From Saccoglossus kowalevskii (Eukaryota > Hemichordata > Enteropneusta > Harrimaniidae), in NCBI RefSeq assembly GCF_000003605.2, contig NW_003125886.1, forward strand, positions 1 to 60,959: a DNA stretch of 60,959 bases. The letters run 5' to 3'. The position numbers and the translations under genes were made by a program. The notes beneath the pieces were generated by a model. That model was given only the letters and a program-made list of their open reading frames with translations, was not told the DNA's origin and did not search any database. Every line of letters begins with the position of its first letter. Position 1 is the first letter of the stretch. Shown here piece by piece: positions 21,769 to 60,959 of the stretch.

Positions 21769-23098
21769 CAGTTCCTACTATATCAATAATTCACCGTGAT
21801 TCAACTTTGATCTATAGCAATTTAAGCAAATGCAACAATATTTTTTTTATAGATATACAATATATAAAGACCCAAAAAGCTACCCTATTACATGAACTGG
21901 GAGGTGGTAGTGTTTTCATTCATTTATGTTCTGATATTACCGAACACGCATGGGATGCTTACGACTCGCGCAGCTGGCGTTTAATAAAACAATTTATTAT
22001 ATTTTGTAGAAATGATGGTGCTTATATAATTGTGATTTGCAGGACGATCTACTACTAACCACTGTACGATGACGTAGGATTGGACAATTTATGGGAATAT
22101 TTGCTTTTGAATCAAATTAGGACATATGCATTCCTTATGTCTTTTAGTATTAGGCTAATCTTCATCAGTTGAGTGTTACACAAAATAATCGAATTATTGA
22201 TTTAACTATCCGCATAGTTCGGGATTATGCCGAACATATTTTGCAGCAAAAATAAGTGCAGATCAACAATTGAATAGTGACATATTTTTAATTTTTATTA
22301 AATGGCTAAAATAAAGGAGTGTCTAGACTAGACTGACTTAAAGGAGGTCGGAACATTGTAGCCAATGATTATTATAAACATGATTAACAGAGATTACTCT
22401 AGTGCAAAAGTCACACTAGTAACTGCCCGGTGTTGATAAAAACGCACCATACGTTTGACGACAGATTCTAATTTCACGCAGGCAACTGATTGTTGACATT
22501 CTGACATAACTGACTGTAGTATACTGGACATATTAAATAGATCAAACGTGACATGTATCTTTGTACCAATTAATGGATTAGATTTCGCAAGCACAGTGAT
22601 GCTCAACATAATTACTATTTTTAACATCGTACCAAATTAGGACACAGGAAACCCCAGACGTGTTCTATTCTAAGTATCCAATATTTATCAGTTGTTCCTT
22701 GTTTGCATATATGTATAAGATTAGCCTTATCAGTCACCTTATTCTGTCGAGTTATACTATATGTCATTGTGCAATTCGCGGTATTAAAAATTGTTAAAAA
22801 TCGATATTTCTAATAGTCGCAATAGTCAAAAATGTTCAGAAAACGTTTGAGAATCAGAGAACAATTGTTAACACGTTTTTACTTTAAGTAGACGTTAAGG
22901 CCCATCCCAGATGTATATGGTGACGTAGAATCGGACATCACTTATTAATAACATATAAATACTAATTATGACACGGGAAACCCCGTTGGTGTCACCCAGA
23001 TAAGAAGACCAATCTTTATAATTAGATCTATTCGCTTTCATCTATTTGCCGTATGAAATCCAAACTATATTTGACAGCAACTTTTCTTTATTAGTTTG

Positions 23099-23121
23099 AC
23101 CATAGACCTTAGGTCTATGGT
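23099..23121. repeat. Perfect 11-bp-arm palindrome inserted in module R
   Basis: ACCATAGACCT-T-AGGTCTATGGT, flanked by a repeated TTTGACC. The sister R module near 29890 reads straight through TTTGACCAATTTTGGG without it, so this is a local insertion. Confidence 0.7.
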
Positions 23122-24175
23122 TTGACCAATTTTGGGGAGAATAGTCATTGCACATGACGTAGGTAGTTTTGATGTTTTTTTTTATATAATTGACTCTTGT
23201 TATCACGAATCTATACTCATTAGTAGAGGGAGGCACGGAGTTCGTTCGTTATCTCCGAAAGTTCATTATAAGTGAGTTCGTTACAGAGAGTACTGCATCG
23301 TTGTAGCATGACGGTTCAGGAAGAACAACTTGCAAAATATTCATAGAACAACAAATATTTAATCATACTGAATAAAATAAATAAAGTAAAATAAACAAAG
23401 AAAAGAATCGAGAAATTGAAAAATCCATTGAATAAAATAGTTGATTACTTGATAATTATAGAATTTTTTTTTTCATGTTTCAATATAGGGGTAAGCTGGG
23501 CACACATAATTATTACTATCTAACAATTATTGTAATGCGAGATTAACGTTTTTATAAATTTAAATCAGGAAAGTGTTTTTCAAGATTATTTACAATAAAC
23601 ATCTACATGATGTACACCTAAAGTTCAGAGTTATTTTGATGTAATTGATTGACAAATCTGGATGGAACAGTCACATGCAGTATATGTTGATTGTTTATGG
23701 ACATTCTGTTGATGTTGTTCGGTATTCACGAATCTCGAACTGGCATCAGTGTGTGGTCATTCACTGTCATGCTTCCAGTCGTTCCTGCCCTAGACCGAGT
23801 ATCGCCTTTCTTTGAACCATTGCTTCTGTTCTTCTGACGCACCTGATGTGTGCAGAGAGTACTGCATTGTTGTAAGTGTCTTTGTCAGCTGACACTTGTG
23901 TTCAATATATTTCACAGTATATGTTGGTTGTTGACAAGTCTCTCCACTGTTGTTCTGTTGACATCCGCAGACTGCTCACTGCCAAATTGTCCACCAGAAA
24001 GCATCTTTCAAACTACAGTGTCTGTCAGAGTATCAGGTTGCCAGTTGTCGGTTAAAACAAGTTGCCTGGTGAACTGTTGTTAATTCGTACATCCCGCTGA
24101 ACATTTTGTTGTTAGGCTCCTCTATCCTGTTTTGCTTAAATCATTCGGTAATCGTGAATGACTAGGTATAAGTTA

Positions 24176-24360
24176 GTGACCATTTCCTGTTGTGCTTCCA
24201 GTCGTTCCTGCCCTGGGTCGACTATCGCCTTTCTTTGAACCATTGCTTCCTTTCTTCTGAGGTACCTTGGTGTGCAGAGGGTAGGAGAGGTAAGCGAATT
24301 CTAAACCAGACTGCATCGTTGTAAGTGTCTTCCTTCTCAGCTGACAGTTGTATTTTCTCT
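24176..24360. repeat. Module A2, copy 1
   Basis: Apparently the best conserved module of the array: CAGTCGTTCCTGCCC, CGCCTTTCTTTGAACCA, TTCTTCTGAGGTACCTTGG, GAGAGGTAAGCGAATTCTAA, AGACTGCATCGTTG. The minus strand is open (NDAVWFRIRLPLLP ... HQGTSEER ... WFKERR). Confidence 0.7.
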
Positions 24361-27300
24361 AGGAGTATAGCGCCAATGTTCAGCAGTGAAATGATTAGGA
24401 GTGTGTCCGTCTCTTCTTTTATACATGTCAGTGCTATCCCAGAGTTCATTTCTCCTGAAGTTTGCGCAACATCACTGATATGAAAAAACTGGTCTGGTCT
24501 AGTTAATCTAGCATGCACGAGTCAGGTGATATGTGATGAACTTTGAACTATTCACATTCGTACTAAATATTCAACGGTGTCTATTACCTATTACAATGAA
24601 ATAATATCAACCCTCAATGTAAGAAGGTAACTTTAGACTCGGGTTTGAATTGCCAGTAAATATTATTTTGAGATTTACTAATAATTACATATACACTTAA
24701 GGGAGTTAGGTACACGTGGACGATGTGAGCAGACAATACGATTTGTTTATTTGGTGGAGAACTGTTTGCTTGGTGTAATCAAAGTGTTTTATTTGTGCAG
24801 TAAATATTTAGATATGTTGAGGTTACTGCTAATGTGGTCGACGAATTTCAGTGAATGCGTATATAAGTATGCACGTAGTCGTATTCATTTCCCTTAAATG
24901 ACGTCATCCATTTCAAAGTTGCAGCCCCTTCCCATCTTCACTCTACTGATTTTTGGTTAATTAAAAGGAAAACTTGTAAATCTCTGTAAGGTCATAAACC
25001 TATTAATCATTATTGAATAGTATATTGTGTCATCTTTCAGTGATGTGTAAAATGTTAAAAACAATTAAAATAACAGTTTTTCTACGTTAATTATGTATGG
25101 AGTAGTAAATATCCATAGGTCGTTTTTATATAAAAAAAAAACACTTAAATGTTGAAATTGTTTTTCTTTCTAGTTTTAAATTGCGAAATCTACATGACGT
25201 GGCGGCAGCGACAGCCACCTGACACAGCTCAGGGGTGCGGAAAACGTGTCATGATTTTTATCAGTTGGTTGTTGCGAAATGTGGCCCATGCTGGAATCGT
25301 TAAGTTAATGAATGCCTTAACTGGAAAGCCGTTTTAAATTCCAATTAATTTATTCTTGTTTTAACAAAATGTTATTGCATGCGTAGTACTCAGTAGGATC
25401 TGTAGATCTAGGGATGTAGACGCTATCGCTGATGGGTCCTTAACCACTCCTTATTACTTGTATTGAAATTCGTTTTAATCCACACATACTTATTTCACAT
25501 GAACACGTGTCATTACTGTTTTTATAAAGCAAGAATGTTCAATTTAATCAGTCATAAATGCGTCAATAAATGTAAATGTAATTTTATAAAATCACCATTT
25601 TTTAAAATTCACAATATTCAGCATTGATATTGGTTGTTAATTTATTACTATGAAACATTCAACAATATAGTCTGAATGTTGTTAATAGTTATAAGTTACG
25701 AATATATTTTATAGCTACTAACAGCAGCAGAAATTAAAACCTACTCCGAATTTGTATAACGACATGGGGCCGGATGTAATGTCGTTTTTAACTTAATTAA
25801 AACACTTTTAATTCAGTTCGTATTATACACATACGAAAGGTCATTTTTATCACTTGTTGGATTAGCTTTTATATAACAACTGAGGCAAATCAACCCATCG
25901 AGTCAAGTTATTCGTATATATTTTATTTTCTAATTTATCATTATTCCCTGTCATTATTTTTATTTAGATTGTGAGTCTTAACAAAACACTCAATTCGGAA
26001 AATCGAAAATTATGATGTGTCGCAAAAATGAAAAGAAAAGCTGCTGGAAATCTTAATAGTAAACACATAATTCATCAATGTCGAATAATAATGCAACAAC
26101 ATAATACATGAAGTCAAGTCAAGTAAATACAAAATGCAAAAAATAAAAAAAAATAAAAAAAAATCGTTGCTCACTAATAATTGTTGGATACTGTGTTCCA
26201 CGTTTTACGTCGAATCATTATGTTTACATTGCGAATCGCCAAATGGCATTACTCGGTTGCCGTTTCTGTCGTGCTTCCACACTGAAGTACCTTACTGTGT
26301 ACTTGGTAAGAGCAATATGTGAATTCTAATAAGGCTACATGATGGTGATAGTATCTTTTCCTGAAATATACCGTTTAATGTTCGGCAGTGCCCTTCCTTT
26401 CTTTTATGTCCACTGGTGATTTCAATTATATCGAAGTTTACGCAAGAAGTCTCAAATGGCAACTAGTTTTGCCAAGTTAAACTCTAAATTAATTGGACAT
26501 TCGATTGATACCAAAGTTGAACCCTGAACTTTTGTTGAACCAACCTCTTAAATTGACAATGCCATGTTTTTGGTTAATACATGTATTGAGTTGATGTAAT
26601 TCATTTCTCATAGAAGTAGTAATATATATTCATGATACAAATATGCATATATTTAGGATACAGACGACAGTGAATTCTTTATGTGACTATACTGTATCAG
26701 GGGATGGGTTGTTTATTTGATCAAGAACTGTCTGCCTAGTGCAAATATGTGTTGTTTTTCCCGAATGTACAAGGAGATTGTGGGTGTTTCTTTACAAAAA
26801 ACGTCTATGGTTTAAAAGTCTTAACAGTGAATATACATAGGTGGCATCTATAATAAAAATACAATTAAATTTAGATTTTTTTTTTCAGTTTTAAATTTCG
26901 AAATCCACATGGCGTGACTTCCATTAAAAGATGACAGTCACATTATACATAGTTCAAGGGCGCAAAAATCATGACGTGTCATGATCATTATCAGTTGCTT
27001 GTTGCAAAATTTGTTTTCCTGCTGGCGTCGACGTGTTAATGAATAACCTAGCCGGCCAGCTGCTTTGGATACCAACTGATGTATTTCAGTCCCAGCAAGA
27101 TTTAGTGTGACTTTGCGCACATTAGAAACTGTGGATTCGTAGATGTAGATACAATGCTAACACTGCCAAGAAGCTTCTGGCTTGCGGTAATTATTTTCTT
27201 CACACATGCTCATTATACTGTATAACATGTAAAACATTGGACGTCTTACGATAACGCAGATTATAAGCACTGGTGTACATGTTCAATATATTAATATATT

Positions 27301-30300: not shown

Positions 30301-30964
30301 GTTCCTTATAAATTAAAAACAAGTAAGTGTTTTGTTTTCAGAATTGTTAAACATCTACATGATATACACTTAAAGAGTTATTTTGATGTTTTATGTTGAT
30401 GTCGGTTGTTTACGTTGCTTGTCCACAATCTGACATCCTTCAAACATATTTTTCTCTCTTGCTGGGTCTTAAGCTTGTTCCTTCATGTTCATCATAACTT
30501 GTTCGGTATTCAAGAATCTTGAAGTCACATCAGTTAGCGGCCATTTACTGTCGTTCCTGCCCTGGGTCGAGTATCGCTTTCTTTGAACCATGGCTTCCGT
30601 TCTTTTGACGCTTCTGTGTGCCTGAAGTACTGCATCGTTGTATAAGTGTCTTAGCTGACAGCTGTATTTTTCCGTTCAATATTTCACAGTACATGCTGGT
30701 TGTTGATGAGCCTCTCCACTGTTGTTGACATCAGCAGACTGCTCACCGTGCCAAATTGTCTACCAGAAAGCATCATACAAACTGCAGGGTCTGTCAGAGT
30801 ATCAGGTTGCCAGTTGTCGGTTAAACAGTTATCTGATTGTCTGTTCCCAGGTTGCAAGTGGTCTGGTGAATTGTTGTTAATTTGTTCACCCCGCTGAACA
30901 TTTTGCTCCTCTGTCCTGTTTTGCTTTAGTCATTCGGTAATCGTGAATGACTACGTATAAGTTA

Positions 30965-31150
30965 GTGACCATTTCCTGTTGTGCTTCCAGTCGTTCCTGC
31001 TCTGGGTCGACTGTCGCCTTTCTTTGAACCATTGCTTTCCTTCTTCTGAGGTGCCTTGGTGTGCAGAGGGTAGGAGAGATAAGCGAATTCTAAACCAGAC
31101 TGCATCGTTGTAAGTGTCTTCGTTTTCAGCCTACAGTTGTATTTTCTCTA
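30965..31150. repeat. Module A2, copy 2
   Basis: Very similar to copy 1. The plus-strand GAGAGGTAAGC has become GAGAGATAAGC. The minus-strand frame is still open. Confidence 0.7.
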
Positions 31151-32361
31151 GGAGTATACTGTCCAATGTTCAGCAGTGAAATGATTTCGAGTGTGTTCGT
31201 CTCCTCTTTTATACATGTCAGTGATATCCCAGAGTTCATTTCTCCTGAAGTTTGTGCAACATGTTATGAAAACTGGTCTGGTCTAGTTAATATAACATGC
31301 ACGAGTCAGGTGGTATGTGATGAACTTTGAACTATTCACATTCGTACTACATATTTAATGGTGTCTATTACCTTCAATGAAATAATATCAACCATCAATG
31401 TAAGAAGGTAACTTTAGTGGATTTGAATTGCCAGTAAATGTTTTTTTGAGATTTATACTAATATCACATATACACCTAAGGGTGTTAGATACACGTAGAC
31501 GTGACGTGTGAGCAGGCAATACGAGTTGTTTATTTGCTAAAGAACTGTTTGCTTGGTGTAATCATAGTGTTTTATTTGTGCAGTAAATATTGAGATATGT
31601 TGAGGTTACTGTTAATGTGGTCGACCAGTGAAAACAAATAAGTATACACGCAGTCGTATTCATTTTCTTAAATGACAACGCCATTCATTTAAAAGTTACA
31701 GCTCCTCCCAATTTCCGCTCTACTCATGTGTGATTAATTAACACGAAAACTATGAAAAGTGTGTAAAGCAAATATTTTGAACATGCAGACTCGAAGATTG
31801 AAGTGCGTACGAATTATTTACTATTGTCTCAAACAGTATAACTCATACACTTCATATAAGCAAAGATAGTTTTGCATAAAGACGGAAACCTCTGACTAAA
31901 TGTTGTAATTAAAATTGCGCAAACCACGTGGCGTGACTTCTATTACGAGATGCCAACAACCCAATTTCGTATCAAAGTCAAACACCTTTTCTATATCAAG
32001 TAAACTGAAAATTAGTTGCATAACACAAAGCTCGTACAATAAAAAGAGTGGTCACTTAAATTCGTCGAGTCAATGATTTGAATGCCACAGCCGTGATGAA
32101 ATCAGCAAGTCTGAATATATCATAGCTAATTATGGATACTGCATGCAATTGGGACATGCATAGTTACAATTTCTCAAACCAAATAACCCTTACACTTCCT
32201 ATAAACCAAAATGTCTGTGCAGCAATACGGAAGCCCGTTATTGCACCAACAAATTAACATACACACGTGTCGCATTTATTAAATGGTATATTTTGTCATA
32301 TTTCATAGTGATGTAAATTTCAATAAACATTGAAGAAATCTAGGCTAATAAAGTAACATAT

Positions 32362-32416
<55 letters not shown>

Positions 32417-38809: not shown

Positions 38810-41800
38810 CTTTTCAAAGATAAGCTCAGTACACAGGATGTCAAACACGTCAAAAATGAGGAGTGACATATAAAGCTATAAATAAAAGTCTGGAGTAGAT
38901 CCTACGTACAACCATTGATTGAAATATGTTCATTCAGTTATACTAATATTCTGATATTGCTAAATACGTATGGGTGATTACGACTTGCATTGATGACGTA
39001 AACTGTATAGAAATGTATTAGTACGTGCACATTGGCGGTATTGAAGCTGGCGTATAAATACAATAACATTTATTATAATTTGTAGAAATGAGGGTGGGCT
39101 AATTGTCTACTACTATCGGCGATCTTCTACCTTGATAAAACAGTTCGAACCAGCCATTTGTTTCATGTATGTATAATTGGACAACTCATTGCTCCCGAAT
39201 CCATGCCAAATTAAAACGTGGGCAACCCATGAGTCAAAGCATATTTAAGCTGGTCTTTATTACTTGTATGTTGCAATATATACACCGTATCTGTGGTTTA
39301 ACTAGGCATGATTTATGTCAAATGTGTTTACTTGTGTTAACCAAACGAGATAACAGTTTAAATATTGAGGCAATTATTGATATCCAAATCAGCGAGAGCA
39401 TAAAACAATTCAACAAGAACTAATGGTAAATTAGAAAATTTTGAAAGACAATTATTAAAACTAACAGTCATGACTATTGTATATAGAAAATCGACAATGT
39501 ATTAACACTGTTTTTGTTAATACAAACTCTAAACAACACGACAAAATTTCAACAAATAATGTGTTATCAGTGGTGAATCAGAACATTGCCTCGATGCAAC
39601 GTTCACGTAAATATGTCAGTTCACTTCATGAATTTAGTACGAAGACACGGACCTCATCATTATAATTGCAAACTATGCCATATGAAAGATGTTCAATATC
39701 CAGCGTGGGATTACTATCGTTTCGGTCATTCGTTGAACGTTATTGTTTATGTAAATGTTGCTGCACTGCTGTTAGTAAATGTACAGCAATTGCTTTGAAA
39801 GTTATTGAACTTGTTTGCCACAATAAAGATTGTAATTTAAGGCAACTGATTGTTGACTCTTTAACGTAACTCACTGTAGCATACTAAACATATTTTTTGT
39901 TAAATCAAGCGTTTGATGGACAGATTCCATTGTATCATTTAATATATATAACTTGCCAGGCTACTGCGACTTTTGTAGGTTGATCACATGCCGTAAGTTG
40001 AGTAGGAAGAGGCTAGGTCAACATTTGATGACGTGGCATCGGACTTAGCAAGCACATTAATACTCTAACATAATTTATATTAACATCGTACCAAATTAGG
40101 GCACGGGGAATCCCCAGACGTGTTCTACTCTAAGTGGCCAATATTTATCAATTGCTTCTTGTTTGCGTACACTATCAGATTAGCCTAATCAGTCACCTCT
40201 TTCAGGTACCAGATGTGTTCTACTTCATTCCAATGTTCATTAAAAAATACGCCATATTATATTATATGCCAAACTAAATTTGAATGCAACTTTTCTTTTT
40301 TAATACTTTGTGACCCATTTGCGAGAATAGTCTTTGCACTTAACATCGGTGAAGCTGTAATGTATTTAATCCGTGTGACTCTTCTTTACACGTATTCGTT
40401 ATATCCAGGGAATAGGGGAATAGAAATAAAAAATGGCAAAGTATTCATAGAATAAAAAATAATTTATTCATACTGGTAATGCAACAATTAAATATAAAGT
40501 AAAATAAATAAAGAACAATATGTGAATAATGCAACAACAAAATAAAGTAACATTTTTTAAATCTACTGAATAAAATAGTCTATCACTAGTATTGTTATAA
40601 ATAATTGTTCCACGATGATTTAAAGTGAAGTAATATATGAGTAAACGTGACAACATAATTATAACTATAAAAAAATCATTAAAACGTGAGATTAACATTC
40701 AAGAATTGCGTTGTACATATATAACATGAAATCGGGAAAGTTTTATTTCAAGATTGTTTATAATAAACATGTGCATGGTGTACACGTTAATAATGTCATT
40801 GATTGGTTCACCTAGATTTGTCGTGGAAGAAATCACATGGCGTAGATGGTGTATGTTGATGGGTTAATGGTTATTCTTTTGACATCGGTCTTTGGCGGTT
40901 TTTGGTGATATTGCCAGTTTGTCCATTGGCTGTTTCCTTCAGTCCTCCAGTCGTTTCTGCCCTGGGTCGACTATCACCTTCTTTGAACCGTGGCTTTTTT
41001 TCTTATTAGATGTTGATGAGCCGCTCCACTGCATTTTTCAAATGTCTGTCAGGGTATCAGTTGCCTGTTCTCAGGTTGCCAGTTGTCTGGTATAAAGTTG
41101 GTAGTTCATACTTCTAAACATTTTGTTGTTAGTCTCATCTGTCCTATTTGGCATAAATCATTCGGTAAATGTGAATGACTATAGGTTAGTGACCATTCCC
41201 CGCTGTGCTTCCAGTCGTTCCTGCCCTGGGTCGACTGTCGCCTTTCTTTGAAGCATGGCTCCCTTTCTTCTGAGGTACCTTGGTGTGCAGTGGGTAGGAG
41301 AGGTAAGCGAATTCTAAACCAGACTGCATCGTTCTCGTGTCTTCGTTCTCAGCTAACAGTTGTATTTTCTTTTGGAGTATACCGTCCAGTGTTCGGCAGT
41401 GGAATGATCTCTAGTATGCCCGTCTCCTCTTTTATACATGTCTGTGATATCCCAGAGTTCACTGACGTTTGCGCAACATCACTGATATGGCAACTGGTCT
41501 GGTCTAGTTAATCTAACATGTACGAGTCAGGTGATATGTGATGAACTTTGAACTATTTGCATTCAATGGTGTCTGTCATTTTCAACTTAACTTTAGATTT
41601 GGATATGAATTGACGGTTAATATTATTTTGAGTTTTATTCTCATAGTAGAAATACATTTATGGGCGATAAAGAAAAACGTGTTCGTTTAGAATGACTGGC
41701 AACGCCATTTAATATTGTTAATATGCAGTTGGTATAATCAATTTTCACTAAAGGTTGAAGCCCCTGTATTTGTGGCTAAATACTTCAAAAGACGGATACA

Positions 41801-43539: not shown

Positions 43540-46499
43540 TCAAACAATAAAAACAAAAGAAATGTGAGTGACTGTGATATGTAAAGCTACTTATATATAC
43601 AATGAAACGAACGTTATCATAATGATTTCAAAAATACTTACTGGCAAAATATGCTTCTTTATGTTAAATATTCAAAGTTGTTTTTAAGGCAACTTATTGT
43701 TGAACATATAACGCAACTTCCGATAGTATACTGGCCATACTTTCTAAAACGTCAAACGTGCGATAGACGTGTGTGTTTGTATCAGTTAATAGTTATAATT
43801 CTTTAGGCTTCCGCGTCTTGTGTAGGTTTATCAAACCCCGTAAGCAGGAAAAGTGTTTTCCTGCTCGACTTCCTTTTCTTTTTTGAACCATAACTCTCTT
43901 TGTTCTGAGGTACCTTGGTGTCCAGTACGTAGGAACATTATGCGAATTCTAAACCAGACTGTAATATATTTGGCAGTACATGTTGGTTGTTGATGAGCCT
44001 CTCCATTGTTGTTTCTATTGACATCATTTGTCACTGCCAGTCATGCCAGGTTGCCGACTGTACAAGATCCTTCAATGTCTGTCAAACTTCAGTACCTGTC
44101 AGGTTATCAGTTGAAGGCTAAACAAATATTCGATTACTTCTTCATATGTTGCATGCTGTTTCATGAACAGTTGTTAATTCATACATCTTTTCCCCGTTAG
44201 TCTAACCTGTCTTCCTGTTAATTTCTGGTCTCGTCTATTTAATTTAACATCAGGTTATTCGGGTGATAGATAAACTTTTAATTATTTGCTTTCATATTAG
44301 AAAATTAATGGTGTCATCTATTAGCTTCAATGAAATAATACCAACCATCAATGTAAGAACTTAACTTTAGACTTGGGTTTAAATTGCCAGTAATATTACA
44401 TATACACTTGAAGGTGATAGGTAAATGTGGATGTGTTATGCGGACAATAAGTGTTGTTTATTTGATGATCACTTCCATTTCCACATTGATTTTGGGTTAA
44501 TTAACACAAACAACAGTAAATCCATGAGAGGTGTGGTCACTCAAATGTGTGAAACAAATATTTTGAGCAGAATTGGAAATTAGATATGCATGAATTTAAA
44601 TATTAAAAAATGTTTAATATTATCTCAAACACTTATAAATAAAGATATGTTTGCACGGGGACCTGTGAGTGTGCTAACAAATCAGTGAATGCACATGAAC
44701 TGAATGTTAATATTAAAATTATAAAAAAACACCTGGTGTGATTTCCATTACGAGATAACAGTCACCAAAAACAGCTGTTCAGATGTGTATTATCCTGCAG
44801 CTCAACGAGTCACAGTTATTTATACTAAATTAATTCAAGAGTATGGAAATCCCTGACGTGTCATGATCGTTATCAGTTGATTGTTGCAAAATGCCTTTTT
44901 ATACTAGAGTCGTTAAGTTAATGTATGTCTAAACTGGCCAGCTGTTTCGGCAACCAACTGATGTATTTCTGTCTTAGAAAGATATAATGTAATTACACAC
45001 CCATATGCACAATAGGAACTGATGATTTGAGGATGTAGATCCAAAGCTCATAACACATGGACTGGTGCAGATATTCAATTTTTTATATTTACAGGATGTG
45101 GTTGTTGGCATGTGGTACTGAACATTTCAAACCCCTTGCCAATTCAAATACATTGAGAAAAACTTCTTTTAACAAAATAATTGCCTTATCTTGTGAGCAG
45201 AGTTAGACAGAATGAGGGAGAATATACTGATATCAAAACAGGATAAATAAAGCTAGGAATGAATTCGTCGCCGGGATTTTATACACAGTAGGCTGAACGT
45301 ATCTGTGATATAAAATCACCAATTATGTTTTAATGTATAACATTTAGCATTGATTTCTAGATACTGATTGTTGATTTCTGACTATGACAGATTCAACAGT
45401 ACAGTCTGCATGTTTGTTGAAATAGTATCTTGTCAGTTAGTAGTTAAAAGTTATGAATCCATGTTACATTCTAACAGTTGCCGGCCAACCTTAGATGTGT
45501 ATGGTGACGCATGGTCGTACGTAATTATATTTTTAACCTTATACCAAATTTAGACACTGGAAACCCCATTCATGTTATACAAATACGAAAGGTCATATTT
45601 ATCAGTTGTTTGTTTAGCTTTTACGTCCTGTTTCATAGCGACTATGTTACACTTGTTCCCAATCAACTGAGATAGTACATATTAGTCACTGTACATAGCC
45701 TTTATTTTTTAAACAATAGTTTCAAGTGATGAAATCATGTATTTATTTAGATTTCGGGTCTTAATAAAATACTGAAATTTCAGAATTTGATAATCATGTG
45801 CCAGGGAAATAAAAAGAAAGGCTTTAGTTAAGGTTAAAATAGTAAAAACATACAAAGTAATTCAACAATTTATTAAATAATGTGAAGTAACAAACATTTT
45901 ACCATTTGAGATGCACTGAGCAGCAGCATGAATTTCAACATGCCGTATTTTAAGTTCGTTTTCAAATCATATATCTTTGCGGAGATTTGCAGAGTAAATG
46001 TTGAAAATAATGCAGAAACTCCAATAAACAAAATCGTTGCTTACTAATAATTACTTTTCCATATTTTTAATTTCAACCATTAAATCACCGAGTTTTAAAC
46101 TATGGGCATATAGTATTTATAAATATCAACTAATCACTGTCATTTGTGAATAAAGGGCATGGAATATGTGTTGATTTTTACAGTAAAAATCTACAGGTTG
46201 TGCATATCAGTTCATGTTTAGAGTTCGTTTAATGTCACTGATTGTTTTTGACCAACTCCATCAAGCTGTCTGTTTTCTGCTGACAGCTATTATAACAATG
46301 CTCACTATGTCTGATGTCTGCAATCCAACATCCTACAAACTTGAATGTCTGTCAGGTCATCATATTGTCAGTTGTCGAGTAAACAATTGTCTGGTTACCT
46401 ATTGTCAGGCGGCCATCTGTCTGGCAAACAGTTGTTAGTTCACAAGTCTAAACATTTTGCTGATAGTCTAGTACAACACAAATCATGTGTTAGTCGTAC
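43540..46499. repeat. Large-repeat array, unit 5 (rearranged, short)
   Basis: Weak G remnant (43540-43580), partial Q (43680-43830), truncated A2 (43861-43962) placed before T (43970-44210), E (44220-44470), V, B/C (44710-45010), D (45500-45680), U (45700-46080), a second T (46230-46500). The order A then T is reversed relative to other units, indicating internal deletion or rearrangement. Confidence 0.6.
43861..43962. repeat. Module A2, copy 4 (truncated, most diverged)
   Basis: TTTGAACCATAACTCTCTTT then TTCTGAGGTACCTTGGTG and CGAATTCTAAACCAGACTG. The splice-donor-like site is lost; the minus-strand frame is still open (VWFRIRIMFLRTGHQGTSEQ). Confidence 0.6.
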
Positions 46500-48074
46500 T
46501 TCTATGAGGATGAGTTAGTGACCATTTTCTGTGTGGGGGTTGTATATCACAACCTGCAAATAACAGAAGCTCTCTGGGTTGAAGGTAATTCATTGTTTTG
46601 CAAATGTTTATCATATCATGGAACACAGTGAACGTGAATAAGGTTATATTAAGCGGTGAGTTAAAGAGTTTCAAATAAGGCCGTCACATGGTTACCGGTG
46701 CAGTTGTGTCCTGTCCGTACATTCATGTACACAACATTCGTCAGGCCACACTTCATCCCTTAGCTGTCAGTAGACCAATTTTTGTATGAACTTTTGAGTC
46801 AAAAGCATTCACCAGCTGTGATTCCCGTGTGTCATATTGATTTGATTTTCGTGTGTCACAATTACAAAACAGGCATGAGGTCTAGATACGTGTTTTTGTA
46901 CTTTTTCAATTTGCTGAGTTGCTACATCTTGAATCCCAAATAATTCATAAATGTGTCAAACCAAGAAAGTCTAGAATGTTCGCGTGATATAAATTACCAA
47001 TATTTTTCTTTCTAACTTGCTAATACATGGCATTGACATTGTATTTGATGATTGTTGACTTTCTAACTATAACATATTTAATAGTAGAGTATGCATGCAT
47101 TTTGTGATAATTCAAAGAGTTACTTATCATATCTAAACAGAAACATCACATTATTTTAAACTTAATAATTTCTTTGATTAGCGTTCATGTTTTTATATAG
47201 GCCAAAGTTTCTAATGGTCAACCCCCCTAAATAAATACAGAAATACATGGAGAACTTTGAACAGTTGAACAAAATATTTGATTGTTGACAAATGTTTTTT
47301 CTATGTTTTACATGAAACAAATCAATCGAGTGAAGTTATCAGTGATTGACTTTGAACATATAGAATTTTTTTATTATCAAAGAATAATGGAAACGTGAGA
47401 TTAACACTCATGAAATGTATTGTACACAATAAGTAGAAAAGGTAAAAGGTTTTCTGATGTCAATGATTTTATCCAGATTTGTCAAGGAATATATAACATG
47501 CAGTGCATGTTGATGGATCACTGGTCATTCAGTTGGTGTCAGTTGTTGACATTGCTCCACCATCCAGCATCAATCAAATATATTGGGTAATACACCTCAA
47601 CATTTGCTTGTTTGTTTGTTTTCTCCCTTCCCCCGTTTTTCAGCATAAGTTGTTGTTTACTGTCATGCTTCCTGTTGCTTCTGCCCTGGGTCGAGTGTCA
47701 TCTTTTTTGAACCATGGCTCCCTTTTTTCATGGGTACCTTGATGTGCAGTAGACCAGACTGCGTCTTGGTGAGTGTTCTCGTTCTCAGCTGACAGTTGAA
47801 TCGTGGACTATAACGTTCAGCAGCACATATTGGTTGTGGACGAGCCTCTCTGCTTTTGTTTATAGTGACATCAGCTGTTTACACTGCTTATCGTATCAGG
47901 CTGTCAACCATGCAGCGTCCGTCAGACATCAATGTCTGACAGGTTAGCAGTTGTCAGTTGTCGGCTAAACAGTTATCCAGTTACCCGGTCTCAGATTGTC
48001 AGTTGTTAATTCATACATCTGAACATGTTTATGTTAGAATTAGTCGGTAATCATGAACGCGTAGGTATACATTA

Positions 48075-48256
48075 GTGACCATTTCCTGCCGTACTTCCAG
48101 TCGTTCCTGCCCTGTGTCGGCTGTCGCCTTTTTTGAACCATGTCCCCCTTTCTTCTGAGGTGCCTTGGTGTGCAGTGGGTAAGAGAGGTAAGCAAATTCT
48201 AAACCAGACTGCATCGTTGTAAGTGTCTTCGTTCTCAGCTGACAGTTGTATTCTCT
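48075..48256. repeat. Module A2, copy 5
   Basis: CCATGTCCCCCTTTCTTCTG then GAGAGGTAAGCAAATTCTAA. A 1-bp loss in CGCCTTTTTTGAACC shifts the downstream minus frame, after the conserved stretch. Confidence 0.7.
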
Positions 48257-51080
48257 TTTGTAGTATGTCGTCTACTGACAGTGGAATGATTACTGGTGTG
48301 CAAGTTACCTCTTTTATACGTGTCTCCCGGAGTTCCATTGTACTGACGTGTGCGCAACATTGCTGATGGCAACCGGTCTGATTTAGTAAATTTAAATTGG
48401 ACGAGTCAGGTGATATATGATGAACTTTGAATTATTTGCATTTGTACTACATATTCAATAGTATTATTTATTAGCTTCAACACGGTTATTGAATTTAGAC
48501 CTTGTAATACATTAAGGGTTATATTTGAGTTATACTAGAGTATACGAATATAACATGTACAATTAAAGGGAATACTTGTGGACGTACCATATGCACAGAA
48601 AATTAGGCAGACTTGTTTGTTTGAAAAGACACTGTTTGCTTGGTTCAATCAATATGTTTTATTTGAGCAGTAAATATTAGGATACTTTGGTGATGATGTG
48701 TGCACGTAGCCAAAAAAGTCGTGAACAACGTCATTCCACATGTTACAGCGCAGTCAGTAAAAATCAACTTCACATCAAAGACAAAGCCCCCCCCCCGCCT
48801 TATGCACTGATCGTTGTTTAATTAACACAAAGCTCGTGCAACGAAAGGTCTGGTCAATCAAATTCATTGAATTATTACCTCTGGTGATATCATTACAGAT
48901 GCTGCATCCCGTGGTGACATGCACGTGTAGTGAATATGCCACTGAACCACTCTCACGCGTATAGCTTAAATTTCAATGTGAAGTATATAATAAATATGAC
49001 TATTACCCTATTTTCCGGTTTTGAATCATAAAATCCACAAGGTGTGACTTACATTACATTTTTTTGGCGACAACCACCTGACTGAAACAGCTGATGGTGT
49101 AACACCCTGAATCGCAGAGTTCACAGCTAAATTACCTGAGATGATGTAGAAACCCCCAGATGTCATAATCCTTATCAGTTGTGTTGGAAATGCGTGTGAA
49201 TACGCCCTTAAGGAAAATAATAACTTAAATAGTAAGCTGACTTGGATACAAACTTATTTGTTAACTGTTTTAGTAAATCTGTGATTATATCCGTGGTGTG
49301 AAGTAGATTACATGTTAGCATTGCCAAGGAGCTTCTCGCTTGAGTTCATTAATCTCCATAAATACTCATCATATTTCGTAATGCTGTGTACATGTTGCAA
49401 TAACACAGGTTATATAAACTGATCTACACATATGGTTGTTACATGACTATCAACACTACTACCATTGATTATTCATTTTACCCTACATCAGAGAACGCAT
49501 TACATTACTGAGTTGTCAGCTAACTGGGTGTAATCGTTGTTGAACTCATAACCATTAATTATAACAAAATACACTGTGCGCATGAAGTCTAATGTGTTTA
49601 CTCCATTCTGTGATTAATTATATAAATATATAATATTAAACATGACAGGTGAATAGGGCAGAGCTGTTTATTTGATGGGGTACTGTCTGCTCGGTACAAT
49701 CAAGGACTGTTATTTGATTGGGGTAGATAAGAAAACAGTTGGGCATAATTGTTTTTCAAGTATACACGGGTGCCCTGCTTCGGGGGTTGCAATTGTGACA
49801 ATGTAATGCACATGATGTCAAAAAAGTTGCCGGGGTCTTTCATGTACTTGTTTCTATACATTTATATTCAGCAAACGAATAGTTTCATTACGATGGACGC
49901 TACGAAATTATTACCTGTAGTTATATAATCGATATATAATGGGAAGGGGTGATGCACTTATTGTCAACAACTTGTAATACTACCAGTCGCCAGAATTAAA
50001 ATTCGCTACACAAATCATGATAACCATACATAAAACGGAGGCTTTTAAATACAATCCAGCGATTACATTCAATTTTGCAATTGTTTCATTTTCTTTTTGA
50101 GTTTTAAATTGCGAAATCCACAGGGCCTGACTATATTTAATTAAAGAGTCATATCAATTCATATCTAATTGCTTAAAAGGACATGGAACAGCCCACATAT
50201 GTCATGATCTTATCAGTTATTTGTTACAAATTGTGCTTTGCATGCGTGGTTCTTGAGTTAATAAATCAACTGGTCTTTTGATTTGAATACCAGCTGATGT
50301 GTTTCAGTCTAAGGAATATAGAATGCAAGCGTTTCTACAATACAAACAGCCACACAAATATTCGCGGGGGTCTTGGTTCTATGCAGAAATAGAAAATTGG
50401 GAGGAATTAATTATACATTATGTTGTGTGAGTTACAATACTGTGGACGTTTTAAATATTTATTGAGCTGTGTTGAAGAAGTTTTAAATTTCTTGCCACTT
50501 AGTGTTTATTACTGTAAATATATTATGCCTTCCATCATCCGCGGCGGTCGCATTACATCACTACACTGTTAGTGAACTGGGGTTTTTATAGCCTGACACT
50601 GACAACTACAATAATATTGATGTTAGTTCGTGCATCACAAAAACAGACTGCTTCTGAAGTCTAAAAACGTTTCATTTCCACCTAAATAAAGGTATCATGA
50701 CCAGGATTATTATGGCCAGGTATTCGAAAAGATGGCATGCAATGGAAAAGTGTATATTCTTAATGTAAAATAACTATTTCATTCAAAATATGCATAGTAT
50801 TCAGCGTTGTCATGTATTTGTATTATCCGCGTCAGAATTCATGTCACTGTGGGTGTTACAGTGGCTAAACAACAAAAAGTGCTTTGCCTATTGCTACGCT
50901 TCAAATAATGAAATTACATAATTTAACGCTTTATCTATCTAAACATTTTGGTCAATGTTGGGTTTGTGTGAAGACATAAGGTAGTACAGCGCATGCACAC
51001 TGATGATCAAACATCTGTTTTAACCTTATATCAAATTGGGAAACGTAAATCCACACTTTCATTAGCCAGTATTTTTTCCT

Positions 51081-51316: not shown

Positions 51317-53664
51317 AACATTAGGTGCACAGTCGAGGCCAAGTATACATTGTGAAATAAAAATAAAGTTGCAAAACATTCATAATGCAACAATAACACA
51401 ATTGCTCAATACTAACTGTGATTCATTCATTGTATTGAGTGTCAAACTCTGGACACACACCAATTAGGACAATCAACTACTCATTGAAATGTGGTATAGA
51501 ATGTAAATGAATGTTTTGAATTCAAGTGTTCCTTCTAGATTTGTTTTAACTAATAAACGTTTGTACATGATGCCCATCTTTAACGTCAACTAGATTTCTT
51601 GTAAAATAGATCGACCATGATGGATGGTGATGGGTCTCCTGTTGTTGATACCGCTCACCTTGTCATTGTTGTCATCTTGCATTGTTCACACACGGCTGTC
51701 TTTCAGGTTATAAATTATCAGGTTGCTTCGTAAGTTAATTTAATCTTAGTGTTTGTCATAAAGCATTCATTAGTCGTGCATTTTAGGTCTGGGTTAGTGG
51801 GATATGTGGAAGGTAATGTTAATCATATTTCATAACCTGAATTACAGTTGACGTGTAATAACACAGGTTATATTAAGCAGTGGAAATATTTAAAAAGGCT
51901 CAAACAAGGCTGTCACGTCGATATCTACCAGTGCAGTTGTCCCTGTCCCAGTCTATGCATTCATTGTACTCTGCATTCGTCAGGCCGCACCACGTCACTA
52001 AACTGTCAGTCGACCAAGTTTCTTTTCTACATTTAAAATGCTGTTGAGTTGCCAAGTTTTGAATCCCAAATAATTCATAAATGCGTCAAAAGAAGTCTGA
52101 ACATATGCATAATACCAATCACCAATCGTACCAAGACAGGGTATTGACCATTGTTTTGTATATAATGAGTATTGACTTTCTGACTGGTACATTCAACGAT
52201 AAAGTATGAATGTCTGTCATTACAAGTCTACTCTTACTGTGACACTTGAAAGTTGCTTAGCAATCTTAAGTAAACGTTTCGGACTAGATGTATATGGTAG
52301 CCAATGATCGGACATCACACTATTTTAAACTTTCGTTGATTAGCGTCCATGTTTTTTTCTACAGATAATTAGTCATCCATTTTTCATATAGACCAACCTA
52401 TTTTTGACAGCAAACTTATTTTTTTAGTTTGAGAAAAGATTATTATTACATATAACGCAGGTGAAGTTGTAATATATCACATTTAATTGACTTATTTTCT
52501 CATATATGTGTACTGATTAGTATGCAGTGACACTGAGTTTGTCTGTTCTACTCGGAAGTTTGTTATAAAGAGTTTGTTGTGGTTACAGTGATTTCAGGTG
52601 GCAGTTGTTTAGTAGGTATAAATACTCAACGTTCTAGAAGGGGAATAATAAAAAAGCTGCAAAATAACCATGAAGCGAAACAATAGTTTATTCATACTAA
52701 ATAATTCAACAACAAAAAAAATGTGATAAAGGGTGGACCATTATTGAAATAAATATCACAAAACTAGGTGAAAGAAAAAAATTGTATAGTTTTTCTGCCA
52801 CCACAAGGTTTCAAATGGTAAACCCTTATATAGATACATAAATAAATAGAGAACTTGAAAACTCAATTGAACAAAATAGTTGATTATTAATAATTACAGA
52901 CACTTTTTTTTTATTTTTTTACATGGAACAAATCAATCGGGTGAAGTAATCAAGAATGAATTTTGAAAACATACCAATATTAATTATCAAAGAATAATTG
53001 AAAAATGGGATTAACATTCATGAAATGTATTGTACCCATAAAAACATCTGCAGGGATACACCAAGAGTTTTTTTAATGTCAATGTTTGTTTCAACCAGAA
53101 TTGTCAAGAAATATATCACAGGCAGTATATCGGGCATGTTGATGGGTCCCTGCTTATTCAGTTGGTGTCAGTTGTTGACATTGCTCCACCATCCAGCATC
53201 AATCAATATGTTGAGTTGCTTATCTCTTCGTGTTAGCATAAGCTATTCACTCACTGCCTTGGATCGAGTATGACTTTACTTTGAACCATGGGGTGCCCTG
53301 GTGTGCAGTAGATAGAGGCAATGTGTGAGCAAGATTGTACACCAGACAGCATCCTTTTCTTCGTTATCAGTTGACAGTTGAATCATATAACATCCAATGT
53401 TGAGCAGTACATGTTAGTTGCCGACGATTCTCAATGCTGTTGTTTCTGTTGGTATCAGCTGTTTACATTACTTATCATATCAGAATTTCAACCATGCAGC
53501 ATCCTTCAAACGTCAATGTCTCTCAGGTTAGCAGTTGACAGTTTTCGGCTAAACGGTTATCTGGTTTCCTGGTTTCAGGTTGCCAGTTGTCTGGTTAACA
53601 GTTGAAAATTCATACATCTAAAAATCATTCGGTAATCATGAATGAATGAGAAGTTATACGTTAG

Positions 53665-53845
53665 TGCCCATTTCCTGTTGTGCTACCAGTCGTTCCTGCC
53701 CTGGGTCGACTGTCGCCTTTCTTTGAACCATGGCTCCCTTTCTTCTGAGGCACCTTGGTGTGCAGTGGGTAAGATAGGTAAGCGAATTCTAAACCAGACT
53801 GCATCGTTCTAAGTGTCTTCGTTCTCAGCCGGGATTTGTATTTTT
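53665..53845. repeat. Module A2, copy 6
   Basis: ACCATGGCTCCCTTTCTTCT on plus, then AGATAGGTAAGCGAATTCTA. The minus-strand conserved stretch is open but a TAG lies directly upstream of it. Confidence 0.7.
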
Positions 53846-54650
53846 ATTTGTAGTATATCGTCTACTGTTCAGCAGTGGAATGATTACTAGTGTGTCTGTC
53901 TCCTCTTTTATATGTATCTCTGATATCCCAGAGTTCCATTGTACTGACGTTTGCGCAACATCACCAATATGGCAACCGGTCTGATCTGGTAATTTAACAT
54001 GTATGAGTCAGGTGATATGTCATGAACTTTGAACTATATGTATTCGTACTACATCCCTACTACAATGGTGTCATCTTTTAACTTCAATACAATTCTTAAC
54101 TTAATTTTCAGGTAATATATTAAGGGGTAATACTATTTTTGAGTTGTGTACTAATATTACATGTACAATTAAAGGTAATACTTGTGAACGTGTCATATGC
54201 TCAGACAATGAGGCAGACTTGTTTGTTTGGAGAAAAACTGTTTATTTGGTACAATCAAGGTGCTTTATTTGAGCAGTAAATATTAGGATATCTTTTTGTT
54301 ATTGTTAATCATAATTTAGGGCTTATATGACGATGTATGCACGTAGTCAACAGAGTTGAGATTTAGAATGTCTGGCAGTGTCATTCTAAATCTTACTGCA
54401 CAGTCAATAAAGCCCTTTCTCCGTATCTTTTTTTATTTAACAAAAATGAGTGCAATAAATGGTGTGGTCACTTAAATTCGTTGGACAAATTATTTTAATA
54501 CCACAGACATTGCGAAATTATAACCTCTGATGATATCATAGTTAATTACAGATGCTGCATAAAGAAGAGACATGCACATATAATGATTATACCAACCAAT
54601 CAGTCCCACGTGTATAGTTTTTAACATTGTTCACTGTTATATGGACTGAT

Positions 54651-57305: not shown

Positions 57306-57371
57306 ATACCACTGGAAGCTGCCAGGCTGGAAGTTGTCGAATTGTTGCGAGATAAGGGTGAAAAGGTTAAC
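57306..57371 (+). pseudogene. Ankyrin-repeat-like coding fragment
   Basis: A 22-codon stretch reads IPLEAARLEVVELLRDKGEK then VN. This resembles the ankyrin repeat pattern (TPLH-AA-x-G-H-xEVVxLLxxKGAxVN) with the Gly-His turn deleted. There is no ATG upstream in frame, and the frame runs on into unrelated hydrophobic sequence. It could be an exon fragment, a degraded copy or coincidence. Confidence 0.3.
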
Positions 57372-59589
57372 TTATCATTTACAACTGTATGTTTTTTATT
57401 CCCCTTGTATGCTGGAAGCGTCTACGTCTTGTCTGTTTTTTTGTACTTTGCGAAGCTAGTTGATAGCGCTTGAGGTAAGCAAACAGGGTCCAGGACAGGA
57501 AGTCACACATTGTCGCATCGTAACTGAGCCCAGCACTCATTTGCATATAACATCAACAGTGACTTGTCAACCAAAGAGCAACGTAAACAAACTTTCGGGA
57601 CTTTTAATCACATACGCGTGCCTCAGTTCCTTATATTTTACAATCGATTTTTGAGTTTGTTCCAGTATTGACAATGCTTTAAAATTTTAACACTGTGTAG
57701 CAAAGCCAAGGGTAAGAAAAAGCAAAAAAAAATCCACTCCGAGTGCTCAAAAACCTGCATCTATACCCTAATATAATTCTATTGTGACATGTGTGAGCTG
57801 AAAAACAAACTTATTAGCGGGCGTGAAGTTTGCGAAGGATTCATCCTTACCAATTCAATTAAATTGAAAAGACCTTATCTTGTGAGCACAATTAGACATG
57901 GTGGGGGGAATACATAATATTGTAAAAAAACAGGATAAATAAATACATTTTTAGGAATGCATTTTCACCCAAAATGTATAAATGTGCCAATAAATAGACT
58001 GAATGTATGTAATATAAAATCACCAATTATTGTTTTAATATACAACATTCAGCATTGACATTCATTTCCATACACTGATTGTTGATTTCTGACTGTGGCA
58101 TATTCAGCAATACAGTCTGTATATTTGTTGGAATAGTTTCCTATCAGTTATGAACCTGCGGATCTTAAGTAGACATTTAGGCAAAACCTAGGGGTGTATG
58201 GTGACATAGGGCCGTACGTAATTCTATTCTAACCTACTAATAAATTAGGACTCTGGAAACAATGTTAGTGTTATACAAATAAAAATGTCATCTTTATCTG
58301 TTGCCTGTATAGCTCTTACATCATGTTATATGGCGACTATGTCACTCACATCCCACTTGTCGTTAATCAACTGAGATATTACTTGTCAACGTATCGAGTT
58401 TAGATAACGGTAACAATGGTCATCATCAATAGCCCTAAATTATAAAATGACAAAATCAAATTTGTTACTGTGTTATTTATTTGGATGGGCAGTATTAACA
58501 AAATTTCAAAAAAAAAAACATTTTGATAAACCTGTGCCAGGGAAATAAAAAGAAAAATTGCAAAAAACTTCAACAATAAAAACAACATAATAAACACAGT
58601 GAAGTAAAGTATATATAGAAAATAATGTGGAAATTATAAACTCCAATAAACAATATTGTTGCATACTAATAATTATTGGTTAATTGTGTTCCACAATGTA
58701 CGTCGAATCATTAAATATTCTAATGGTAAATTATGAATAAATAGTAATCATAAATATCAACTAATAACTGAAATGACTAAAAGTCTACACGCTGTGCACA
58801 CCAGTTCGCGTTTTGGGTTATTTTAACGTCATTGGTTTATTGGCCCACTTCTGTTGACATTAACTATTGACACTGCTCACTTTGACAGGTTGTCTGCAAT
58901 CCAACATCATTCAAACTTGAATGTCTGTCAGGTTGTCAGTTGTCGGGTAAACAGTTGTCTGGTTGACAGTTGTCATTTTGTCAGCTGTCTGGCAAACACT
59001 TCTTAGTTCAAGACTAAAGATTTTTATGTTAGTTCTGTATACCATAAATCAGTCGTTAGTCGTAATTCTATGAGGTATGAGTTAGTGAGCTTTTCTGTTG
59101 TAGTGTGGGGATTTTCATCACATCATTGCTACTTAAATATATGTATCGTGGTCAAGGTTATTTATAAATATGACAAACAATGGAAATGTGGATGTTCCTA
59201 ATATAAAATCGCTATTTTTTTAAATATGTATAATATTCAGCGTTGATATATATCATTTGTGTGTTGACTTTTTGACTGTTGCAAGGATTCGTTAATTCAA
59301 AAATTTCAAATAGGTATGTTAATGTTAATGCATATAAGTATGCACGAATTCATTTACTTAAAGTTACAACGTATACAGTGTACAATTGTTACAATGCTGT
59401 AAGTATCACTTTCCTTTCACATTTCCAGACTCTTCTCATTTTCATTCAAGTGATTTTCGATTAATATCACAAAAACTAGGAGAGTGTATGAAAGGTGTGG
59501 TTAATCAAATTTTTCGAAACTTATATTTTGAACACACAGACGCTAGGAAATTGGAAATCGTCTCGAATATTAAGTGTGTATTAATTTTA

Positions 59590-60959
59590 AATATTAATAT
59601 GAAATATGCTAAAAATAACCATAGCTCTCTGGGTTGGGAGTAATTTATTGTTTTGCAAATGTTTATCATCTTTATAAGATAAACACAGTAGATGTGTAAT
59701 AACACAGGTTATATTAAGCAGTGTAAAGAAGGCTGTCACATGGTCACTAGGGCAGTTGTCCCTGTCCATACATTCATTGTACTATGCATTCGTCAGGCCA
59801 CACCACATCACTAAGCTGTCAGCCGACCAAGATGTGGTATGAACTGTGTAGTCAATAGCAATCACTGCTGCTCATATTAATGCATGAAGTATAAATTGAT
59901 ATAAATTACCAATATATTTTTTAAAATGTACTACACATTTGAATTGTATATAATGATTGTCGACTTTCTGACTGGCACATTCAACGATAAAGTATGGATG
60001 TTTGTTGAAATAGTCAATCATTACAAGTCTACTTATATTGTGAGTTGCTTAGCAACCTTGAGTAGACGTTTAGGCCAACCCTAGATGTATATGGTGACTT
60101 AGGATAGGACATTACACTATTTTAAACTTATTCTAAATTTCGTTGATTAGCGTTCAGTTTTTGTCTACAAATAATTAGTCGTCTATTTTTCATATAGGCC
60201 AATGTTGGCAGCAACTTTTCTTCTTACTTTGATCAGTTTTACGGAAGGAGTGCTATTACACATAATGTAGGTGAAGTTGTATTATATCAAATTTAACTAA
60301 CACGTTTTATCACGTATATGTAGTGATTAGTATTCAATGCCACTGAGTTTGTCTGTTCTACTCAGTAGTTTCTAATAAAGAGTTTGTTATATCGAGGTTA
60401 CAGTGTATTCGGGTGGCGGTTGTTTAACAGGTATAAATAATTTACATTCTACAGGCAAAATAATAAGAAAAGCTGCAAAATACACATAGAGCAAAACAAT
60501 AGTATATTTATACTGAATAACGCAACAAAAATTAAATTTGGTAAAGGTTTCGCATCATTGAAACAAACAAATATCACACAATTAGTTGAAGGAGAAAAAT
60601 ACTTTGTATAGTTTTTCTACCATTGTCACAATTTCTTATGGTACATACAGAAAAGAATGGAGAAATTATAAACCCAATTGAACAAAATAGTTGATTATTA
60701 ATAATCACAGAAAAATCAATCGAGTAAAGTAATCAAGGATTAACTTTGAACACATAGCTATGTTAATTATCAAAGAATAATTGAAACGTGGGATTAACGT
60801 TATGAAATGTGTTGTACACATATAAGTAGAAACAGGTAAGTGATTCTTTACAATAAACATGTGCATGAGGTACACCCAGAGTTTTACGAATGTCAATGAA
60901 TGTCAGTTGGTGTCAGCAGTTGACATTGCCTCACCATCCAGCATCAATAAAATACGTTT
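59590..60959. repeat. Large-repeat array, unit 8 (distal type, cut by window end)
   Basis: Y (59590-59850), D/R (59860-60440), S (60460-60860) and the start of T (60890 onward). It follows units 6 and 7 in the same order, so the array continues beyond the window. Confidence 0.65.

Follow-up and report, generated by a model that had tools for sequence, protein, structure and literature searches.

Several human macrosatellites carry genes, among them RS447/USP17 with a unit of 4.7 kb, PRR20 (6.6 kb), TAF11-like/MSR5p (3.4 kb) and CT47 (4.8 kb). In the parts of the published accounts considered here, these gene-bearing arrays vary in copy number and the PRR20 open reading frame (ORF) has no SNPs among five monomers (PMC3599962, PMC3018141), while chromosome 19 SST1 monomers are more than 99% alike within one array (PMC3018141). 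The array described here occupies positions 21929 to 60959 of the window, the whole 60,959-nucleotide stretch of DNA that was analysed, and its right end lies beyond it. As delimited by self-BLAST and profile families, it resembles the human arrays, so far as those accounts describe them, in having multi-kilobase units that lie head to tail, with a gene per unit, but differs in its irregular unit lengths, its partial decay and flanks of the five gene copies that are only 53-89% alike. The first-pass annotation of this DNA proposed a macrosatellite, and the term fits in part: the unit is large, tandem and direct, but high inter-unit identity is not seen and the flanks are not homogenised.

Two other kinds of tandem locus are relevant. 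In the birth-and-death model of tandem multigene families, genes are duplicated locally, some duplicates stay intact and others become pseudogenes, and homogenisation does not occur. The copies described here are likewise local duplicates, with signs of purifying selection in the intact ones and with pseudogenes among the others. They differ from such families in their very small coding fraction, 144 bp per several-kilobase unit, and because of this low content the cluster reads as plain non-coding repeat DNA. Replication-dependent histones are tandem, intronless, TATA-driven genes for small basic proteins. The gene in this array is similarly short, apparently single-exon and basic, with a TATA box plus initiator, a hairpin after the stop and tandem copies, but unlike the histones it has no Pfam match, histone fold included, in searches with two of the four intact copies (E ≤ 10). 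Its hairpin, with a stem of 6-9 bp and a 9-nt loop, differs from the histone stem-loop, and no Rfam family, the histone 3' stem-loop among them, reaches its gathering score in the window. A literature search for invertebrate macrosatellites with ORFs, for mollusc macrosatellites, and for small tandem intronless or orphan genes, returned no match.

Architecture of the array

The first-pass annotation described an array of large repeat units and suggested a self-comparison for diagonals at kilobase offsets. That comparison bears the description out. Parallel direct diagonals span approximately 21,929 to 60,954, with large self-matches at 21.93-60.95 kb, and 211 of the 212 self-matches in the whole window (self-BLAST, E < 1e-4) are direct; the sole inverted one (16415-16459 with 16612-16569) lies outside the array. 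Seven self-matches touch positions below 22,000, of which five are entirely outside the array and two, both short, start at 21929 and 21972 and extend into it. The longest pair, 22586-24974 and 29341-31751, is 75% alike over 2,564 columns. Offsets peak at 4.5, 5.25-5.5, 6.75, 7.75, 10, 12.5-13 and 17 kb, among others, and unit length therefore varies; since the array runs past the end of the window, its copy number is a lower bound. The units are diverged, direct and head to tail, and the earlier suggestion of an old segmental tandem duplication was right. Tandem Repeats Finder, run with periods of up to 500 bp and so blind to kilobase-scale units, gives a longest period of 83 bp (2.9 copies at 51081-51316).

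Profile searches of the module families, halted after four rounds, gave full and partial matches to modules T (24), U (23), B (18), A (15) and D (6), with the T and U matches overlapping each other. The core of module A, TTTAAATTGCGAAAT, lies at 25175..25189 on the plus strand, 0.86 kb upstream of the first gene copy, and recurs at 26890 (with one base different), 32497, 36957, 42138, 50103 and 55820. It is possibly an upstream regulatory element.

The small gene and its predicted promoter

The array had been called gene-free, which is incorrect, as it holds five copies of one small gene. In five units the minus-strand core encodes a predicted 47-residue basic peptide (pI 10.1), and four of these copies have an intact 47-codon coding sequence (CDS) followed by a stop: B1 (24173..24316), B2 (30962..31105), B3 (41186..41329) and B5 (53661..53804). 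In B4 (48072..48214) the frame is shifted by a one-base deletion; its mismatches to B5 fall 2/2/9 by codon position. The ATG, the TAA and the TATA box are common to all five copies, and the four intact proteins are 89-98% identical with no gaps among them, their differences falling at residues 18, 23, 25, 26 and 43. Searches of protein-family, structure, phage, viral and prokaryote collections, but of no eukaryotic protein or genome collection, gave no meaningful match to the peptide. One full copy in five being frameshifted counts against the gene-cluster reading.

Besides the full copies there are eight decayed fragments, and all 13 share one orientation. One fragment (23753..23861) lies 0.3 kb downstream of B1, and others adjoin B2 to B5 (30537-30621, 40932-41021, 47657-47758 and 53253-53352, respectively). 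Three have no neighbouring intact copy: 43865..43961, 26270-26338 and the weak 43116-43152 (E 0.025). The bias in codon position is weaker in the fragments (47/52/74) than in the intact copies (2/3/13; Fisher one-sided P 0.016), but third positions are still favoured, with 74 of 173 changes, and the fragments are therefore no clean neutral control.

Upstream of every copy, TATAAAAG is placed exactly 31 nt ahead of a TCATT[TC] initiator, which itself lies 73-77 nt ahead of the ATG. This 8-mer is invariant, as against 40% of the next 20 columns. The window has six occurrences of it on the minus strand and two on the plus strand, and five of the six minus-strand ones are at -104 to -108 of the gene ATGs. 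The predicted core promoters, each of which begins at the leading T of TATAAAAG and ends at the A of the initiator 31 nt further along the minus strand, are at 24392..24423 (B1), 31182..31213 (B2), 41405..41436 (B3), 48287..48318 (B4) and 53881..53912 (B5). Further upstream of B1, a conserved block (24462..24549, minus strand) contains [AG][AG]TTCAAAGTTCA from 24549 down, TGACTC[AG]T from 24524 and TTGC[AG]CAA from 24469; we take these conserved sites to be nuclear-receptor-, AP-1- and C/EBP-like motifs. The first recurs at B2-B5 (31333, 41554, 48433 and 54035), and TTGC[AG]CAA is missing at B4.

Downstream, neither AATAAA nor ATTAAA occurs within 430 nt of any of the five copies. A hairpin with an 8 bp stem and a 9-nt loop follows soon after the B1 stop (24139..24163, minus strand), and those of B2, B3 and B5 have stems of 9, 8 and 6 bp, also with 9-nt loops. 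The evidence for these four hairpins is modest, because 4 to 16 of 200 shuffles fold equally well (z -1.5 to -2.9).

Signs of selection on the 47-codon frame

Variable columns among the four intact copies are distributed 2/3/13 by codon position, so that 13 of 18 are third positions. Across the six pairs dN/dS is 0.03-0.19, with dS of 0.13-0.39 against dN of 0.009-0.048, and pooled pS is 0.206 against a pN of 0.025. When substitutions were re-placed in the fixed frame, none of 20,000 outcomes was as low in residue changes plus stops as the observed 5 (mean 13.1); 60% of re-placements were also free of stops, and stop-free frames are thus uninformative by themselves. As the ORF had been chosen after inspection of the alignment, a scanned-frame control was also needed. 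Over 309 ungapped columns of 328, a scan of six frames in 40-codon windows found one of 3,000 column shuffles that reached the observed score, surpassing it at 9 versus 8. Column shuffles also create stops, and this control therefore tests openness together with substitution pattern.

The first-pass annotation also took the unit to be non-coding DNA, and here it was mistaken: the best-conserved part is the promoter plus the 47-codon frame, which bears marks of purifying selection. Taken pair by pair (ten pairs), the five copies are 89-96% alike in the CDS, 78-91% in the promoter/5'UTR, 65-89% in the upstream flank and 53-85% in the downstream flank, with 24-114 gap columns in the flanks. Across the array as a whole, substitution periodicity passes the 1% threshold in one of 447 windows against 4.5 expected, and most gap lengths are not divisible by 3 (144 of 764 are), which confines any coding signal to the 47-codon gene. 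The best window in the single-pair codon scan has p 5.4e-4 among 171 windows and alone fails correction. Judged from these substitution patterns, purifying selection apparently keeps the frame in the intact copies.

Several other candidates were set aside. The plus-strand ORF pair 28866-29117 and 39169-39423 is less alike as protein (76% over 67 residues) than as DNA (87%), and so has no sign of coding constraint; its Pfam search was blank. A plus-strand internal exon, with AG before the core and GTAAG after it, was dropped, since a stop interrupts the plus frame that agrees with the pattern of substitutions. Longer minus-strand frames at 24222-24449 and 48072-48338 are comparable in B1 and B4, and were dropped because B2 has only a shorter one. 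No tRNA genes were found. The CpG pattern suggests gene-body methylation in the animal.

Origin and maintenance of the array

The array is most probably a cluster of tandem genes, old and shaped by birth-and-death evolution, a reading in which we have considerable confidence. The ancestral block, a few kilobases long, would have carried the small gene, apparently intronless, with its TATA-plus-initiator promoter, on the minus strand and transcribed towards BRF2. This block would then have been duplicated head to tail many times, presumably via unequal crossing-over, after which the spacers would have diverged and gained insertions and deletions; in some copies selection would have preserved the frame and the core of the promoter, while others died. 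Three features that the model leads one to look for are present: several local tandem paralogues (5 full copies and 8 fragments), purifying selection on the intact ones (by dN/dS and shuffles) and pseudogenes among the rest (the frameshifted B4 and the 8 fragments). The gene would probably be transcribed and translated from a single exon into the basic peptide, and several copies may have been retained for the sake of dose or of slight differences in expression. That they form a new, multicopy family of basic microproteins, with expression driven by TATA/initiator promoters that carry nuclear-receptor-, AP-1- and C/EBP-like sites, is proposed more tentatively, at somewhat under even chances.

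The alternatives overlap, and their odds need not total one. It is unlikely, though the strongest of them, that the array consists of non-coding DNA, either a macrosatellite or a structural repeat, and that its core is a long non-coding RNA exon, a regulatory block or a structured RNA, with an accidental frame. Most of the unit is indeed non-coding, the TATA box and upstream motifs are conserved along with the frame, and both a poly(A) signal near the stop and a meaningful match to known protein families are lacking. Such a core does not explain a third-position bias in one frame, low dN/dS or a common start and stop, and the units are too diverged for a homogenised macrosatellite when compared with the arrays that the cited part of PMC3018141 describes. 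The long non-coding RNA locus of the first-pass annotation, taken as a structured RNA, fails further in that only one pair among the 45 predicted shows a two-sided change that is kept (covariation term +1.84) and Rfam is without a match. The copies, full and partial, found at various points along the array might instead belong to a mobile element, spread in and beyond the array, of which the ORF is a part. This is very improbable, given that the 13 copies and fragments all point one way and are embedded in longer homologous units; no gene copy was found outside the array within the window, and the first 21.9 kb gives only a 10-residue match (E 0.22). The earlier remark that no transposon protein is present holds for five of the longer array ORFs (no Pfam match at E ≤ 0.1) and for four sequences searched separately.

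Slightly less credible still is a piRNA cluster or a decaying duplication without a selected product, which would suit a long, repeated, mostly non-coding and partly decayed array but not the constraint on the coding frame and promoter of four to five copies. The least probable alternative makes core-limited gene conversion, and not selection, responsible for the similarity of the copies. In pairwise profiles the core does rank among the segments of highest similarity, but conversion would level synonymous and non-synonymous sites equally, whereas dS is at least 5 times dN in all six pairs.

Under the birth-and-death reading, a 39-kb stretch that resembles non-coding repeat DNA carries a small-protein gene with marks of selection, in several copies. 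The divergence among copies within one genome reveals this gene without a second species, as the spacers serve as background against which the codons stand out, and the same within-array comparison could be applied to other large "non-coding" tandem arrays in search of missed microproteins. If the array does encode such a microprotein family, other animal tandem arrays considered gene-free may likewise conceal micro-genes. Should the peptide be expressed, the copy number and promoter motifs would suggest a dose-dependent or inducible product.

Tandem units and a small gene within them

The first-pass annotation had predicted a dot-plot of repeated units, and self-comparison of the window bears this out: 211 of 212 self-hits at E<1e-4 are in direct orientation, substantial hits span 21,929 to 60,954, and their offsets are broad, most falling at 4-8 kb and multiples thereof. 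The single inverted hit (16.4-16.6 kb) lies outside the array, which is still running where the window ends. Of the long pairs, the best is 22586-24974 with 29341-31751, at 75% identity over 2,564 columns. Profile searches, halted at four rounds, returned full and partial matches to the repeat modules T (24), U (23), B (18), A (15) and D (6), with the T and U matches overlapping one another. Within the array, at 51081-51316, there are 2.9 repeats of an 83-bp unit (86% matches), and the element at 21601-21770 that had been read as a SINE is without a second copy among the window self-hits.

The array had also been described as gene-free, a description contradicted by module B, which carries a minus-strand ORF of 47 codons in four intact copies and one frameshifted copy. 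Five of the module's 18 matches are full-length copies and the other 13 are partial. In pairwise profiles of its alignment, most windows of a roughly 200-bp block are 83-96% alike, and around the block similarity is mostly lower (31 to 95%). The ORF lies inside the block, with a start and stop common to four copies. ORF comparison places the intact copies at 24173-24316 (B1), 30962-31105 (B2), 41186-41329 (B3) and 53661-53804 (B5), and alignment places the copy with a one-base deletion, B4, at 48072-48214, all on the minus strand. The four intact proteins share 42 of their 47 residues.

Adjoining the array on the minus strand is a BRF2-like gene (TFIIIB 50 kDa subunit; 18855-20081), a single unbroken frame of 408 residues, stop to stop, identified by Pfam and by a PDB match (8ity_V, 2.6e-41). 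The first copy of the small gene is about 4 kb upstream of BRF2, and the copies are oriented towards it. At 9797-12097 on the plus strand are probable exons of an actin-binding protein; they include the terminal part of an ADF-H domain, which at E 0.043 does not reach the Pfam cut-off, and a stretch of repeats rich in Pro and Glu, and they look drebrin-like. Two minus-strand frames, 1164-2465 (433 residues) and 4953-5384 (143), both stop to stop, have no Pfam match at E<=0.1. Observed/expected CpG is 1.1-1.2 in the first 6 kb, 0.38-0.57 at 9-18 kb and 0.52-0.95 in the array, a pattern that appears to resemble that of animals with gene-body methylation.

Coding potential, selection and decay

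Comparing the intact copies in their six pairs gives dN/dS of 0.03-0.19 (pooled pS 0.206, pN 0.025), and the 18 variable columns of the four copies are split 2/3/13 over codon positions. When the same substitutions were randomly re-placed on the same bases, none of 20,000 trials scored as low as the observed 5 residue changes plus stops (trial mean 13.1); the absence of stops is itself uninformative, since 60% of the trials also lacked them. Because the frame had been picked after looking, an all-frame shuffle test was run over six frames and all 40-codon windows, using shuffled columns of the four-copy alignment (309 ungapped of 328). The observed score was attained by one of 3,000 shuffles (9 against 8), and, as column shuffles also create stops, both openness and substitution pattern enter into the test. 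In a pairwise codon scan of self-alignments the ORF ranks top of 171 windows, with a single-pair p of 5.4e-4 that alone would fail multiple-test correction. General three-base periodicity across the whole array is at chance level, with one of 447 windows exceeding the 1% threshold against an expectation of 4.5, and the 47-codon gene is therefore the only coding signal seen.

Across the ten pairs of the five copies, similarity is 89-96% in the coding sequence, where no pair has more than one gap column, and 78-91% in the promoter and 5'UTR. In the upstream flank it is 65-89% and in the downstream flank 53-85%, with 24-114 gap columns in the flanks. Gene conversion confined to the core is one explanation to be weighed for this contrast, but the synonymous divergence (0.13-0.39) speaks against it, being in every one of the six intact pairs at least five times the non-synonymous (0.009-0.048). 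The synonymous excess speaks for selection on the predicted peptide frame.

Eight decayed fragments of the gene, compared with B5, have mismatches of 47/52/74 by codon position, a weaker bias than in the intact copies (Fisher one-sided P 0.016), with a third-position share still above one third. One of the eight is weak (E 0.025), and seven contain gaps; the alignment of fragments may itself have produced the longest of these. The frameshifted B4 has mismatches of 2/2/9, as would be expected if this copy had died recently. The first 21.9 kb hold no further peptide copy except a 10-residue match at E 0.22.

Predicted promoter and flanking elements

The octamer TATAAAAG is found 104-108 nt 5' of the ATG in all five copies; the window has six occurrences on the minus strand, five of which are at the gene promoters, and two on the plus. 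The distance from the first T of this TATA to the A of TCATT[TC] is exactly 31 nt in every copy, as expected where a core promoter combines TATA and initiator, and the predicted leader is 73-77 nt long. In the five-copy alignment the octamer is 100% invariant and the next 20 columns 40%, with values of 62% for the remaining leader, 81% for the coding sequence and 34% for the distal upstream region. Farther upstream, [AG][AG]TTCAAAGTTCA and TGACTC[AG]T are common to all five copies, and TTGC[AG]CAA, a motif frequent enough that chance alone predicts about 2.4 on each strand of the array, to four; these resemble DR1, AP-1 and C/EBP sites, respectively. A sixth copy of [AG][AG]TTCAAAGTTCA at 33735 lies inside a partial module B match.

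Seven of the 15 module A matches, when aligned, have in common a short core, TTTAAATTGCGAAAT, in otherwise diverged DNA, located on the plus strand at 25175, 26890 (one base different), 32497, 36957, 42138, 50103 and 55820. The 20-column invariance of these seven was matched by 2 of 5,000 shuffles. Each of the five genes has a copy of the core 0.8-2.0 kb upstream, and two more copies lie farther off; the core may therefore be a candidate regulatory element.

Beyond the stop codon, the four intact copies have a potential hairpin whose stem is 6-9 bp and whose loop is 9 nt, for which folding support is modest (z -1.5 to -2.9; among 200 shuffles, 4 to 16 fold equally well); in B4 the stem looks disrupted, judging by alignment, not folding. 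From predicted start to stop (221 columns), the alignment shows no RNA covariation (1 of 45 pairs). No AATAAA or ATTAAA occurs within 430 nt downstream of any of the five copies.

The predicted peptide and the nature of the array

At 47 aa, with a pI of 10.1 and a GRAVY of -1.08, it is small, basic and hydrophilic, and by eye has no signal-like hydrophobic stretch. Searches of Pfam (two copies queried), PDB sequences (one copy), phage records and PHROGs (one copy each), IMG/VR and GTDB genomes (four-copy alignment as query) and NCBIfam (for B5) gave no relative, a result that holds for these collections alone, none of which spans eukaryotic proteomes as a whole. The one NCBIfam match for B3 (E 0.089) is meaningless, scoring 11.8 bits where the cut-off is 688.

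Several human macrosatellites, including RS447/USP17, PRR20, CT47 and TAF11-like, also carry a gene per several-kb unit, but chromosome 19 SST1 monomers are >99% alike inside one array and the PRR20 ORF is free of SNPs among five monomers (PMC3599962, PMC3018141). The Saccoglossus array is like the human gene-bearing macrosatellites in layout only, with its gene in several-kb units, and unlike the SST1 and PRR20 arrays in that homogenisation is absent. The class that fits it best is an old tandem gene cluster undergoing birth-and-death evolution, with coding sequence making up an unusually small share of it.
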